Source: Bradyrhizobium sp. Tv2a-2 (GTDB lineage: Bacteria; Pseudomonadota; Alphaproteobacteria; Rhizobiales; Xanthobacteraceae). Taken from it: DNA of 64,000 nt. A program made the translations under genes and the position numbers. The notes under the pieces are model-generated. The model saw only the letters and a program-made list of their open reading frames with translations. It was not told the DNA's origin and made no database searches. Positions 6,186 through 10,467 of this stretch are shown here, one piece after another (the first letter of the stretch is position 1; every line of letters begins with the position of its first letter). Where the stretch lies: the NCBI RefSeq assembly GCF_000472425.1, contig NZ_AXAI01000003.1, positions 126,156 to 190,155 of the forward strand. The letters run 5' to 3'.

Positions 6186-6947
6186 ATGAGTCAACCGGAC
6201 CCCACCACGCATTTCGGCTACCGCGACGTGCCGCTCGGCGAGAAGCAGACGCTGGTTAACGAGGTGTTTCACAGCGTCGCCTCGCGCTACGATTTGATGA
6301 ACGATCTGATGTCGATGGGCCTGCACCGGGTCTGGAAGGACATCATGATCAACATCCTGAACCCGCCGAAGGGCGATGCGCCCTTTGCCCTGCTCGACGT
6401 GGCCGGCGGCACCGGCGACATTTCCTTCCGCGCGGCCAATGCCTCCGGCGCCGGATTCCGGGCGACCGTCTGCGACATCAATGAGGACATGCTCCGTGTC
6501 GGCCGCGAACGCGCCATTGCTCGGCATCTCGACGACCGCGTCTGCTTTGTCGAAGGCAATGCGGAAGCGTTGGCCTTTCCTGACCGGCACTTCGACGGCT
6601 ACACCATCGCATTCGGCATCCGCAACGTGCCGCGAATCGATCGCGCGCTGAACGAAGCGTTCCGCGTGCTCAGACCCGGCGGCCGTTTTCTGTGCCTGGA
6701 ATTCTCCACCGTCGAGGTGCCTGGGCTCGACCGGCTCTATGATCTGTTTTCCTTCAGGGTGATCCCGCCACTCGGCCGCATGGTGACGGGTGACGCGGAT
6801 TCCTACCAATATCTCGTGGAATCCATCCGCAAATTCCCAAGGCCGCCCGCCTTCGCCGACATGATCCGCGCGGCCGGCTTCTCCCGCGTCAACTGGCAGA
6901 TCCTGTCCGGCGGCATCGTGGCACTGCATTCGGGCTGGCGTTTGTGA
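6186..6947 (+). CDS. ubiE: Ubiquinone/menaquinone biosynthesis C-methyltransferase UbiE
   Basis: The 253-aa SAM-dependent enzyme performs the C-methylation step of ubiquinone synthesis. Visible family motifs are the N-terminal [15 protein letters not shown] and [17 protein letters not shown] segment, the SAM-binding loop [14 protein letters not shown], and the C-terminal [12 protein letters not shown]. The ATG at 6186 matches where the family normally starts; the frame upstream is open but not family-like. The stop overlaps the GTG start of ubiB by 4 bp, indicating one operon for two steps of quinone synthesis. Confidence 0.95.
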
Positions 6948-8518
6948 TCTCTGCTGCAACCCACATCCTGCGGCTGAGCCGGGCCGCCTTCGTGCTGGCG
7001 CGCGAGGGCGTGTTTGGCGTCGTCGATCCCGCGCTGGTGCCGCCGCCCGGACAGCTCGCGATCAAGATCGCGGGGCTGGTCGAGCGCCGCGGCGCCAAGT
7101 CGGGACCAAGGCTGTCGCGCGCGCTGGAGCGCATGGGCCCGGCCTATCTGAAGCTCGGCCAATTCCTGGCGACGCGCCCGGACGTGGTCGGCGTCGGCCT
7201 CGCGCGCGACCTCGAAAGCCTGCAGGACCGCCTGCCGCCTTTCCCGCAGGCTGAAGCCGAGGCCGCCATCGCGACCTCGCTGGAGCAGCCTATCAACCAG
7301 GCCTTCGCAAGCCTGGGCCCGGCGGTCGCGGCCGCATCAATCGCCCAGGTACATCGCGGCGAGGTGCTGCGCGACGGCGCGCTCCATCCTGTCGCGGTCA
7401 AGGTGCTGCGCCCGAACGTCGCCACGCGCTTCCGCCGCGATCTCTCCGATTTCTTCTTCGTCGCGCACAAGGCCGAAACGCATTCTTCCGAAGCGCGGCG
7501 GCTGCGGCTGGTCGAGGTCATCAACACCATGTCGCGGTCGGTCGCTATGGAGATGGACCTGCGGCTGGAGGCGGCCGCGCTCTCCGAGATGGCCGAGAAC
7601 ACCGACAGCGACCCGGATTTCCGGGTGCCGAAGGTCGACTGGGACCGCACCACCCACAACGTGCTGACCATGGAATGGATCGACGGCATTCCGCTGTCCG
7701 ATCATGCACGGCTGGCGCAGGCGAATGTCGACCTGCCCGATCTCGGCCGCAAGGTGATCCAGAGCTTCCTGCGCCACGCGCTGCGCGACGGCTTCTTCCA
7801 TGCCGACATGCATCCGGGCAACCTGTTCCTCGACAAGGATGGCCGGCTGGTCGCGGTCGATTTCGGCATCATGGGCCGGCTCGGCGACAAGGAGCGGCGC
7901 TTCCTCGCCGAGATCCTGCTCGGCTTCATCACCCGCAACTATCGCCGCGTCGCCGAGGTGCATTTCGAGGCGGGCTATGTGCCCGCGCACCATTCGGTGG
8001 AGAATTTCGCGCAAGCCATCCGCGCCATCGGCGAGCCGATCCACAACCGTACCGCCGAAGAGATTTCCATGGCGCGGCTGCTCACGCTGCTGCTCGAGGT
8101 CACCGGCCTGTTCGACATGCGCACGCGCCCCGAGTTGATCCTGCTGCAGAAGACCATGGTCGTGGTCGAGGGCGTGGCGCGCAGCTTCAACCCCAGGCTC
8201 GATATCTGGCGGGTGGCCGAGCCCGTGGTGCGGGAATGGATCGAACGCAATCTCGGTCCTGTCGGGCGCCTGCAGGGCGCGGCCTCCGGCGCGGGCGATC
8301 TGGCGCGCGTGCTGACTGCGCTGCCAACCATGGGGCTCCGCGCGGTCGCGGTGCTGGAGCAGCTCGAGGTGTTGACCCGCGAGGGCGTGCAGTTGTCGCC
8401 GGAGACGATCGCCGCCTTGGGCCGCAGCGAGGGCAGGAAGAACCGCTGGCGCACCGTCGCGCTCTGGATCATCGCGGCGACGTTCATCGGCATCTTGATC
8501 GCGGTCACCCGACTTTGA
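6944..8518 (+). CDS. ubiB: Ubiquinone biosynthesis kinase-like protein UbiB
   Basis: This 524-aa ABC1/ADCK-type atypical kinase supports ubiquinone production. The KxGQ motif is seen as [14 protein letters not shown], the ABC1 signature as [12 protein letters not shown], the ATP lysine in VAVKVLRPN, and catalytic-loop-like residues in [13 protein letters not shown] and [10 protein letters not shown] hydrophobic C-terminal segment ([15 protein letters not shown]) suggests a membrane anchor. Translation starts at a GTG overlapping the ubiE stop (GTGA). Its own stop codon is the first half-site of a palindrome that precedes coaBC. Confidence 0.94.
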
Positions 8519-8555
8519 TTGCATTGCAATCATGCCGATGCTAGCATTGCTAGCA
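8516..8555. promoter_or_regulatory. Pair of 17-bp palindromes, FitA-type operator candidate
   Basis: Two inverted repeats of the same design lie 23 bp apart, centre to centre: TGATTGCA-T-TGCAATCA (8516-8532) and TGCTAGCA-T-TGCTAGCA (8539-8555). Both are perfect. The first overlaps the ubiB stop codon and the second ends 27 bp before the coaBC start. Half-sites of the form TGNTNNCA are what I recall for operators of FitA/VapB ribbon-helix-helix antitoxins, and the next gene begins with exactly such a domain, so autoregulation of coaBC is the simplest reading. Confidence 0.7.
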
Positions 8556-8581
8556 CCGGTCCGCTCCGGGGGAGGTCGTCC

Positions 8582-10015
8582 ATGGCCAGCCTGACCATCC
8601 GCAAGCTCGACGACGCCATCAAGTCATACCTCCGGCTGCGCTCGGCCAAGAATGGCCGCTCGGTCGAGGAAGAGGTCCGGGTCATCCTGCGGGACTATGT
8701 GGAAGGAAGCCCGGTGCCGCCGGGCACCTTTCTGGTAGGCGCTGCGCCGACCGAGCTCCCTGCGGCCGTGCCGCAAGCCGTGCGCGCGACCGGCGAAGCG
8801 CGCATCACCCTGATTATCGGCGGCGGTATTGCCGCCTACAAGGCGCTTGACCTGATCCGGCGGCTGAAGGAGCGCCGCATCCACATCCGCTGCGTGCTGA
8901 CCAAGGCGGCGCAGCAATTCGTGACGCCGCTCGCAGCCAGCGCGCTCTCGGGCGCGCGCAGCTACACCGACCTGTTCGATCCCGACAGCGAGTTCGACGC
9001 CGGCCACATTCGCCTTGCCCGCGACTGCGACCTCATCGTGGTGGCGCCGGCGACCGCTGACCTGATGGCGAAGATGGCGAACGGTCATGCCGACGACCTC
9101 GCCAGCGCCGTTCTGCTCGCAGCCAGCCGGCCGATCCTGCTCGCGCCGGCCATGAACCCGATGATGTGGTCCAACGCCGCCACCCGTCGCAATGCCGAGC
9201 AGCTTCGCCGCGACGGCATCCATTTTGTCGGCCCCAATGCCGGCGAGATGGCGGAGGCGGGCGAGGCCGGCGTCGGCCGCATGGCCGAGCCGCTGGAGAT
9301 CGCGGCCAGCGCCGAGCGCTTCCTGCGGCCGCTGCCGCCGCAACCGCTGGCCGGCAAGCGCGTGCTGATCACGGCGGGCCCGACCCAAGAGGCGATCGAT
9401 CCCGTGCGCTACATCTCCAACCGCTCATCGGGCAAGCAGGGTTTTGCGATTGCCGCAGCCGCCAAGGCCGCGGGCGCCGATGTCACGCTGATCACCGGTC
9501 CCGTCGAGCTCGACGATCCCAAGGGCGTTGCGATGGTGCATGTTGAATCGGCCCGGCAGATGCTCGAGAAGGTCGAGGCGATGCTGCCCGCCGACATCGC
9601 GATCTTCGCGGCGGCAGTGGCCGACTGGCGCGTCGCGCATGAGGGCGGCCAGAAATTGAAGAAGACCGCGGGCCAATTGCCCGCACCGTTGCAGCTGGTC
9701 GAGAACCCGGACATTCTCGCGACGATCTCCAAGCTGAACGAGAGACGGCCGGGCCTTGTCATCGGCTTCGCCGCCGAGACCGAACATCTGATCGACAACG
9801 CCAAGACCAAGCTGAAGCGGAAGGGCTGTGACTGGATCGTCGCCAACGATGTGTCGCCCGCAGCCGGCACTTTTGGCGGCGACCGCAACACCATCCATCT
9901 GCTTCGCCGCGAGGGCGGCGAGATCAGCGTCGACGATTGGCCGGTCATGACCAAGGACGAGGTCGCGGTCGCCCTGGTCGCACAAATCGTTGAAGCCTTG
10001 AGGACACTGGCATGA
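8582..10015 (+). CDS. coaBC: CoaBC with N-terminal FitA-type ribbon-helix-helix domain
   Basis: The 477-aa product joins three parts. Residues 1-40 ([20 protein letters not shown], then [16 protein letters not shown]) are a FitA-like antitoxin DNA-binding domain. Residues about 72-245 are the CoaC flavoprotein decarboxylase ([11 protein letters not shown], His142 in [14 protein letters not shown]). Residues about 258-470 are the CoaB ligase ([26 protein letters not shown]). The enzyme makes 4'-phosphopantetheine for coenzyme A. The flap that carries a Cys in E. coli CoaC (ACGD) reads [12 protein letters not shown] here, with no Cys. The start at 8582 follows a GGGGGAGG ribosome site at about 8568-8575, so the extra domain is translated. 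The gene overlaps dut by 4 bp. Confidence 0.93.
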
Positions 10016-10467
10016 GCGCAGTCAAAGTCGAAATCTTGCAACTGCCGCATGGCGCGGGCCTGACGCTGCCAGCCTACCAGACCGCCCATGCGGCGGGGCT
10101 CGATCTGCTCGCTGCGGTTCCCGAGGGCGCGCCGGTCGTGCTCGAGCCCGCCAGATACGTGATGGTGCCGACCGGTCTGTCGATCGCGCTGCCGGAAGGA
10201 TTCGAGGCGCAGGTGCGGCCGCGCTCGGGGCTCGCCGCCAAGCATGGCGTTACCGTGCTCAATGCACCCGGAACCATCGATGCGGATTATCGCGGCGAGG
10301 TCGCGGTGCTACTGGTCAACCACGGGAGCGCTCCCTTCACCATCCGCCGCGGGGAGCGCATCGCGCAAATGGTGATCGCTCCGGTGTCGCGGGCCGAGCT
10401 TGTTCCCGTTAGCGCGCTGTCGAGCACCGAACGCGGCGCCGGAGGCTTCGGCTCGACGGGGCGGTAG
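10012..10467 (+). CDS. dut: Deoxyuridine 5'-triphosphate nucleotidohydrolase
   Basis: The 151-aa trimeric dUTPase hydrolyses dUTP to dUMP, keeping uracil out of DNA. The conserved motifs appear in order: HAAGLDLLA (motif 1), [11 protein letters not shown] (2), [13 protein letters not shown] (3), [10 protein letters not shown] (4) and [11 protein letters not shown] (5, the flexible C-terminal arm). It overlaps the coaBC stop in an ATGA, the common alphaproteobacterial coaBC-dut pairing, so it is probably co-transcribed with ubiE-ubiB-coaBC. Confidence 0.96.

Follow-up and report, generated by a model that had tools for sequence, protein, structure and literature searches.

The coaBC gene of Bradyrhizobium sp. 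Tv2a-2 encodes a CoaBC enzyme fused at its N-terminus to a ribbon-helix-helix (RHH) head of the FitA antitoxin type, and it is preceded by paired palindromes. As this head and this DNA switch belong to a toxin-antitoxin pair that is still whole in relatives, CoaBC is probably a regulator of its own expression. The capture is well supported by comparison among relatives, autorepression of coaBC-dut by the fused CoaBC is a strong inference and likely, and the joint reading, namely fitAB ancestry at the ubiB-coaBC junction, capture of head and operator, and autorepression by the CoaBC scaffold, can be held with considerable confidence.

Genomic context of coaBC

The stretch of DNA analysed, 64,000 nucleotides of contig NZ_AXAI01000003.1, is hereafter called the window. 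It comprises the following features at this locus:

6944..8518, + strand: ubiB (ABC1 kinase-like), the upstream neighbour; open reading frame, Pfam ABC1 E 1.8e-75; its stop codon coincides with the TGA that opens site 1
8516..8532, no strand: operator site 1, TGATTGCA-T-TGCAATCA, two 8-bp boxes at a 9-bp pitch; perfect palindrome, kept upstream of fused coaBC
8519..8524, + strand: putative -35 TTGCAT inside site 1, by pattern only
8539..8555, no strand: operator site 2, TGCTAGCA-T-TGCTAGCA; perfect palindrome
8542..8547, + strand: putative -10 TAGCAT within site 2, 17 bp from the putative -35, by pattern only
8568..8575, + strand: putative Shine-Dalgarno sequence GGGGGAGG, proposed from the sequence
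8582..10015, + strand: coaBC, fused FitA-like RHH, CoaC and CoaB, 477 aa; open reading frame, Pfam, TIGR00521 E 1.1e-119
8582..8701, + strand: FitA-like RHH head, residues 1-40; Pfam, AF2, fold match to FitA 2bsq, dN/dS
8702..8797, + strand: linker, variable and flexible, residues 41-72; low pLDDT, dN/dS 0.643
8801..9301, + strand: CoaC flavoprotein domain, residues 74-240; Pfam Flavoprotein, fold match 6tgv
9347..9901, + strand: CoaB (DFP) domain, residues 256-440; Pfam DFP, fold matches 6tgv and 1u7z
10012..10467, + strand: dut; open reading frame, Pfam; 4-nt overlap with the coaBC stop (ATGA, 10012-10015)

The start codon of coaBC is the ATG at 8582, not position 8516. The product matches TIGR00521 with 400 bits (cut-off 219.7) and contains both Pfam domains (Flavoprotein and DFP); downstream of the linker it is an ordinary CoaBC.

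FitA-like head of CoaBC

Residues 2-39 of CoaBC match the Pfam family FitA-like_RHH (PF22513) with 56.9 bits (cut-off 27, E 2e-15), which bears out the assignment of residues 1-40 to a FitA-type RHH domain in the first-pass annotation. The PDB sequences matching the head at E < 0.1 are FitA chains only (2h1o and 2bsq; E 0.008-0.009). Furthermore, an AF2 model of the head (50 residues, mean pLDDT 77.6) best matches FitA in the FitAB-DNA complex (2bsq), which takes the top three places of the fold search (TMq 0.73-0.74, rmsd 1.0) with Foldseek E-values of 0.24-0.35 for this short domain, none of the matches falling below 0.001. The pLDDT of the linker is below 50 at residues 47-67.

Pooled over 19 pairs of fused relatives, dN/dS is 0.123 in the head, 0.100 in CoaC and 0.109 in CoaB, and reaches 0.643 in the linker (residues 41-71); purifying selection on the head is the same as on the enzyme. 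Residues T5, R7, A22, S27, E29 and R33 are invariant across 38 aligned heads, and R7, which from FitA/RHH structures we take to be a DNA-facing residue, is invariant across 59 aligned fused proteins. A dN/dS close to that of the enzyme, together with these invariant residues, indicates that the head is translated and retained for a function, and this constraint rules out translation starting only past residue 60, a case that had been raised beforehand.

The function retained might be that of an antitoxin, the head still acting against a FitB encoded elsewhere, or the operator might serve another FitA protein. Several relatives with a fused CoaBC do encode a second fitAB elsewhere (L204, L206-L208), but fused proteins have no recognisable toxin-binding tail: with a profile of 69 FitA tails, the best fused linker (L187) reached E 0.0026 and one of 830 shuffled linkers scored higher, and no fused linker beat the best shuffled control for a FitAB-type C-terminal toxin-binding tail. 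Moreover, no FitA-like (PF22513) match other than this head was found in the 8.5 Mb genome of the window. An antitoxin role for the head, or another FitA user of the operator, is hence very improbable.

Operator palindromes

The two 17-bp palindromes that the first-pass annotation had pointed out are perfect except for the centre base, start 23 bp apart and are separated by a 6-bp gap, with site 1 opening on the ubiB stop codon (TGA, 8516-8518). Because the operator lies downstream of ubiB and starts on its stop codon, control of ubiB by read-through, which had also been proposed, is unlikely. Paired inverted boxes in front of an antitoxin-type reading frame are also the arrangement of FitAB/VapBC; the half-sites of the FitA operator, TGCTATCA/TGATAGCA, are of the TGnnnnCA type, like the CoaBC boxes. 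By shuffling, chance alone is expected to give a TGnnnnCA-n-TGnnnnCA box pair about 0.0017 times in an upstream region of 150 bp. A search of the 8.5 Mb genome restricted to exact and 2-mismatch forms of TGATTGCAnTGCAATCA returned a single exact copy, before coaBC, and two further sites at 2 mismatches.

A stand-alone RHH gene that is unlinked to coaBC (L210, G111:C10) has at -27 a palindrome like site 2 of the window, with another centre base.

Co-occurrence of operator and fusion in relatives

A first count took in family f1, in which 117 of the 119 genomes searched have CoaBC, and eight named further loci. Here a box pair is found within 150 bp upstream of 67/75 fused genes, of 3/6 genes accompanied by a separate RHH gene and of 0/42 genes lacking any RHH gene. 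In a wider set and within 300 bp, it precedes 77/82 fused genes, 7/14 fitAB loci, 1/2 relics, 1/2 other vapBC loci and 0/58 genes without an RHH gene, the classes having been set by hand for L112 and L115-L117 (fitAB), L113 and L114 (relic), L262 and L264 (vapBC), and L267 and L188 (fused). One of the 42 and of the 58 genes without an RHH gene, L118 (G055), starts at a contig end with little upstream sequence; it may be a fused gene split in two, with its other piece at the end of another contig. L038, which is identical to L031 over the coaBC stretch compared, is part of the 150-bp count and was left out of the tree and the 300-bp count, as were L188 and L243, in which the core is too short, and L198, which is the same locus as L186.

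The eight fused genes without a pair within 150 bp comprise four with the pair further upstream (L018, L152, L153, L175), three with one mismatch, and L024, in which it is weak. The five without a pair within 300 bp are L017, L177 and L186 (one mismatch), L024 (weak) and L249, whose best triple has two mismatches. In L018, L152, L153 and L175, inserts that look REP-like lie between operator and start codon, and the boxes are shifted to -156 to -291 yet retained. L248 and L249 (G483 and G278, family f24, genomes of 1.5-1.6 Mb), from small-genome relatives with odd amino-acid make-up, also have a fused CoaBC; L248 has an exact box pair and L249 has none.

The proposal that an antitoxin head was captured together with its operator is supported by the wider count, in which the pair separates fused genes from genes without an RHH gene and is not missing upstream of extended coaBC genes in relatives. 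When relatedness was removed, 4 well-supported independent pairs remained, of which a mean of 3.5 agree and 0 oppose (sign test median p 0.25, n being too small for power). Among the 98 loci with an RHH gene, 39 have a triple layout and 47 a two-pair layout, with a tolerance of up to 4 mismatches; the other 12 fit neither pattern. The same boxes precede intact fitAB, as in L112 with its three-box operator, and a box pair stands before 20/53 FitA-like genes elsewhere in the genomes, some of which share the letters of TGATTGCA; this suggests that it is an operator type of this antitoxin family.

These data also bear on the possibility that the head is a relic or a mere oligomerisation aid that binds no DNA, with the palindromes simply left over. 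Mycobacterial CoaBC is described as oligomerising without a head (PMC7794376), and the 58 loci mentioned above manage without one. Against this, selection on the head is close to that on the catalytic domains, in contrast to the drifting linker, R7 never varies in the fused proteins aligned, and the boxes persist in nearly all fused loci of the wider set, including the four in which inserts have displaced them far upstream. We regard a relic head as improbable, and capture of a working head with its operator as the better account.

Toxin-antitoxin pairs at the ubiB-coaBC junction

A complete antitoxin and PIN toxin (fitAB) lies between ubiB and coaBC in 15 of the 160 loci examined, a ratio that is no frequency estimate since loci outside family f1 were partly picked for RHH matches. 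Four of these loci belong to f1 (L112, L115-L117), seven to f35, three to f16 and one to f24, order-wide counts being lower bounds (at least so many) among the matches listed. The PIN toxin was confirmed by Pfam in both linked proteins tested (2 of 15). In 9 of the 11 loci checked, the toxin stop overlaps the coaBC start as ATGA or GTGA (at L260, where coaBC is frame-shifted, the overlap was assigned by reading), so that the three genes have the appearance of a single operon at these loci. L113 and L114 retain a whole antitoxin, with the toxin cut down to its first and last residues. In the window, no PIN toxin gene accompanies coaBC, whose neighbours are ubiB before and dut after it; the initial statement that no toxin gene is nearby thus holds beside coaBC in the window but not for the lineage, given the 15 fitAB loci and the two remnants.

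In the tree of linked FitB proteins, 9/15 cluster (86/82), and the topology test does not reject a single origin for all 15 (p-AU 0.187). A different, VapC-type pair was recognised at the same junction by reading the sequence of L262 and L264 (G460 and G186), the latter with two RHH genes. The ubiB-coaBC junction seems to draw in or retain toxin-antitoxin pairs.

Distribution and number of fusions

In family f1, 66 of 119 genomes have one unbroken fused match, and G020 has one in two pieces. Genus g3 of this family has four sampled genomes with the fusion and one with antitoxin and toxin remnant; among eight genomes sampled from genus g108 (family f24), the fusion is present in five, an intact fitAB in one, another vapBC in one and nothing in one. 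The CoaBC of the Bradyrhizobium laboratory strain BTAi1 (L037) is fused as well. A single clade of all fused genes is rejected on the CoaBC tree (p-AU 6e-40, quick tree), and parsimony gives 11 changes, with at least 4 on starred branches. The rejection implies either several origins of the fusion or a history of loss or transfer. Several origins would be the simplest reading, although losses and gene transfer would leave an indistinguishable pattern.

A class-wide search of 385 genomes found 63 with a FitA-like match. For fusions outside the order, an open frame of more than 397 aa occurs, among the matches listed, only in the genome of the window and in G024, and 28 loci from this search contain no CoaBC. 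Inspection of two frames of 397 aa and of three shorter frames showed no enzyme fusion, and the candidate L314 yielded no match; L085, whose match starts only at residue 7, likewise proved to be no fusion.

Putative promoter and control of coaBC-dut

A strict sigma-70 scan of the coaBC upstream region found no promoter. The looser elements recur among relatives: in two-pair loci, TTG at the site 1 position and TAnnnT at the site 2 position occur together in 18/47 and are both missing in 18/47, and in 15 of the 39 triple-layout loci TAnnnT begins 5 nt past the last box, about 0.6 being expected with equal random bases. If the putative -35 and -10 are the promoters, occupancy of the boxes would hide the promoter, and boxes at or over a likely promoter are as expected for repression. 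In 11 triple-layout loci (10 fused and one fitAB: L112, L159, L160, L162, L166, L172, L176, L178, L180, L182 and L241), TAnnnT ends 5-7 nt before the head start codon. The spacing suggests that the transcript of fitA or fused coaBC is leaderless and, as a pattern, makes a translation start further inside the protein less likely as well.

The head could bind the operator and yet mainly activate, bring CoaBC to DNA for another end (e.g. supply of dUTP or CoA close to DNA) or serve a wider regulon. Operator layouts do vary among lineages, and coaBC and dut share one operon, as such roles might lead one to expect. The position of the boxes at or over the likely promoter in the triple-layout loci speaks against activation, however, and the single exact copy of the site in the genome, within the mismatch range searched, against a wide regulon. 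Activation, recruitment or a wide regulon as the main role therefore appears unlikely, and autorepression is preferred.

The following course of events best accounts for the data. In ancestors, the ubiB-coaBC junction would have housed a fitAB pair that shared an operon with coaBC, a step to which the whole pairs, the overlapping stop and start codons and the broken toxins of relatives point. Several lineages would then have lost the toxin together with the tail by which the antitoxin binds it, the RHH head becoming the N-terminus of CoaBC with the operator kept. RHH heads of different CoaBC subunits would pair and bind the 8-bp TGnnnnCA boxes, which would cover the promoter, and CoaBC would thereby limit its own synthesis and that of the dUTPase. 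According to PMC3920265, FitB tethers FitA dimers on paired operator boxes; mycobacterial CoaBC is described as a dodecamer that is inhibited by CoA and its thioesters (PMC7794376). A CoaBC dodecamer could thus take the place of FitB as holder of the antitoxin dimers on DNA and, more speculatively, CoA thioesters, substrate or flavin state, as ligands of CoaBC, might change the presentation of the heads and tune repression. Tentatively, and with more doubt than confidence, one may go further: an essential enzyme would repeatedly have taken over a toxin-antitoxin module, replacing the toxin as downstream partner and scaffold, and become a CoA-pathway sensor in which transcription of coaBC-dut would be set by how far CoA thioesters or substrate occupy CoaBC.

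Comparison with known systems

The closest known case is PutA, described as a flavoenzyme whose N-terminal RHH domain represses its own operon and which switches with proline and flavin state (PMC5293562). By domains, the fused CoaBC likewise has an RHH domain N-terminal on a flavoenzyme, and the DNA-binding domains of PutA (2jxg, 2gpe) also match the head model, among many RHH proteins, ranked below FitA. Unlike PutA, which serves proline utilisation, CoaBC is biosynthetic, and its head, FitA-like by structural ranking, originated in a toxin-antitoxin pair. The VapBC-type FitAB of Neisseria gonorrhoeae belongs to the same RHH family and has the same fold as the CoaBC head, and relatives keep the whole pair at the ubiB-coaBC locus; the fused CoaBC differs from it in having neither toxin nor recognisable toxin-binding tail, the enzyme standing in the toxin's place. 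Shigella VapBC is reported to bind as an oligomeric complex on two sites over -10 and -35 (PMC3384007). This layout resembles site 2 and site 1 of the window in the reading proposed here, with the difference that the antitoxin is of the AbrB type and the toxin is intact. Finally, the mycobacterial CoaBC dodecamer (6TGV; PMC7794376) shares the enzyme architecture with the CoaBC of the window but has no RHH head, its structure spanning residues 2-412 with CoaC from residue 1.

A search of the open-licence literature by full text, titles and the beginnings of abstracts returned, among the papers listed, no report of an RHH or antitoxin head on CoaBC, and the terms phosphopantothen and Dfp are absent from the main text of a 2009 toxin-antitoxin survey (PMC2701414). 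The fused architecture may already be visible in family databases.

Biological significance

Why chromosomes keep toxin-antitoxin pairs, and how these lose their harm, is debated. RHH-headed autoregulating enzymes are already known; the origin of this probable member is unusually clear. Indeed, a single locus presents the steps side by side: a whole pair in an operon with an essential gene, a broken toxin, and an antitoxin head on an enzyme with the operator kept. For Bradyrhizobium and its relatives, which are soil bacteria, this provides a candidate transcriptional control of CoA synthesis that can be put to the test.
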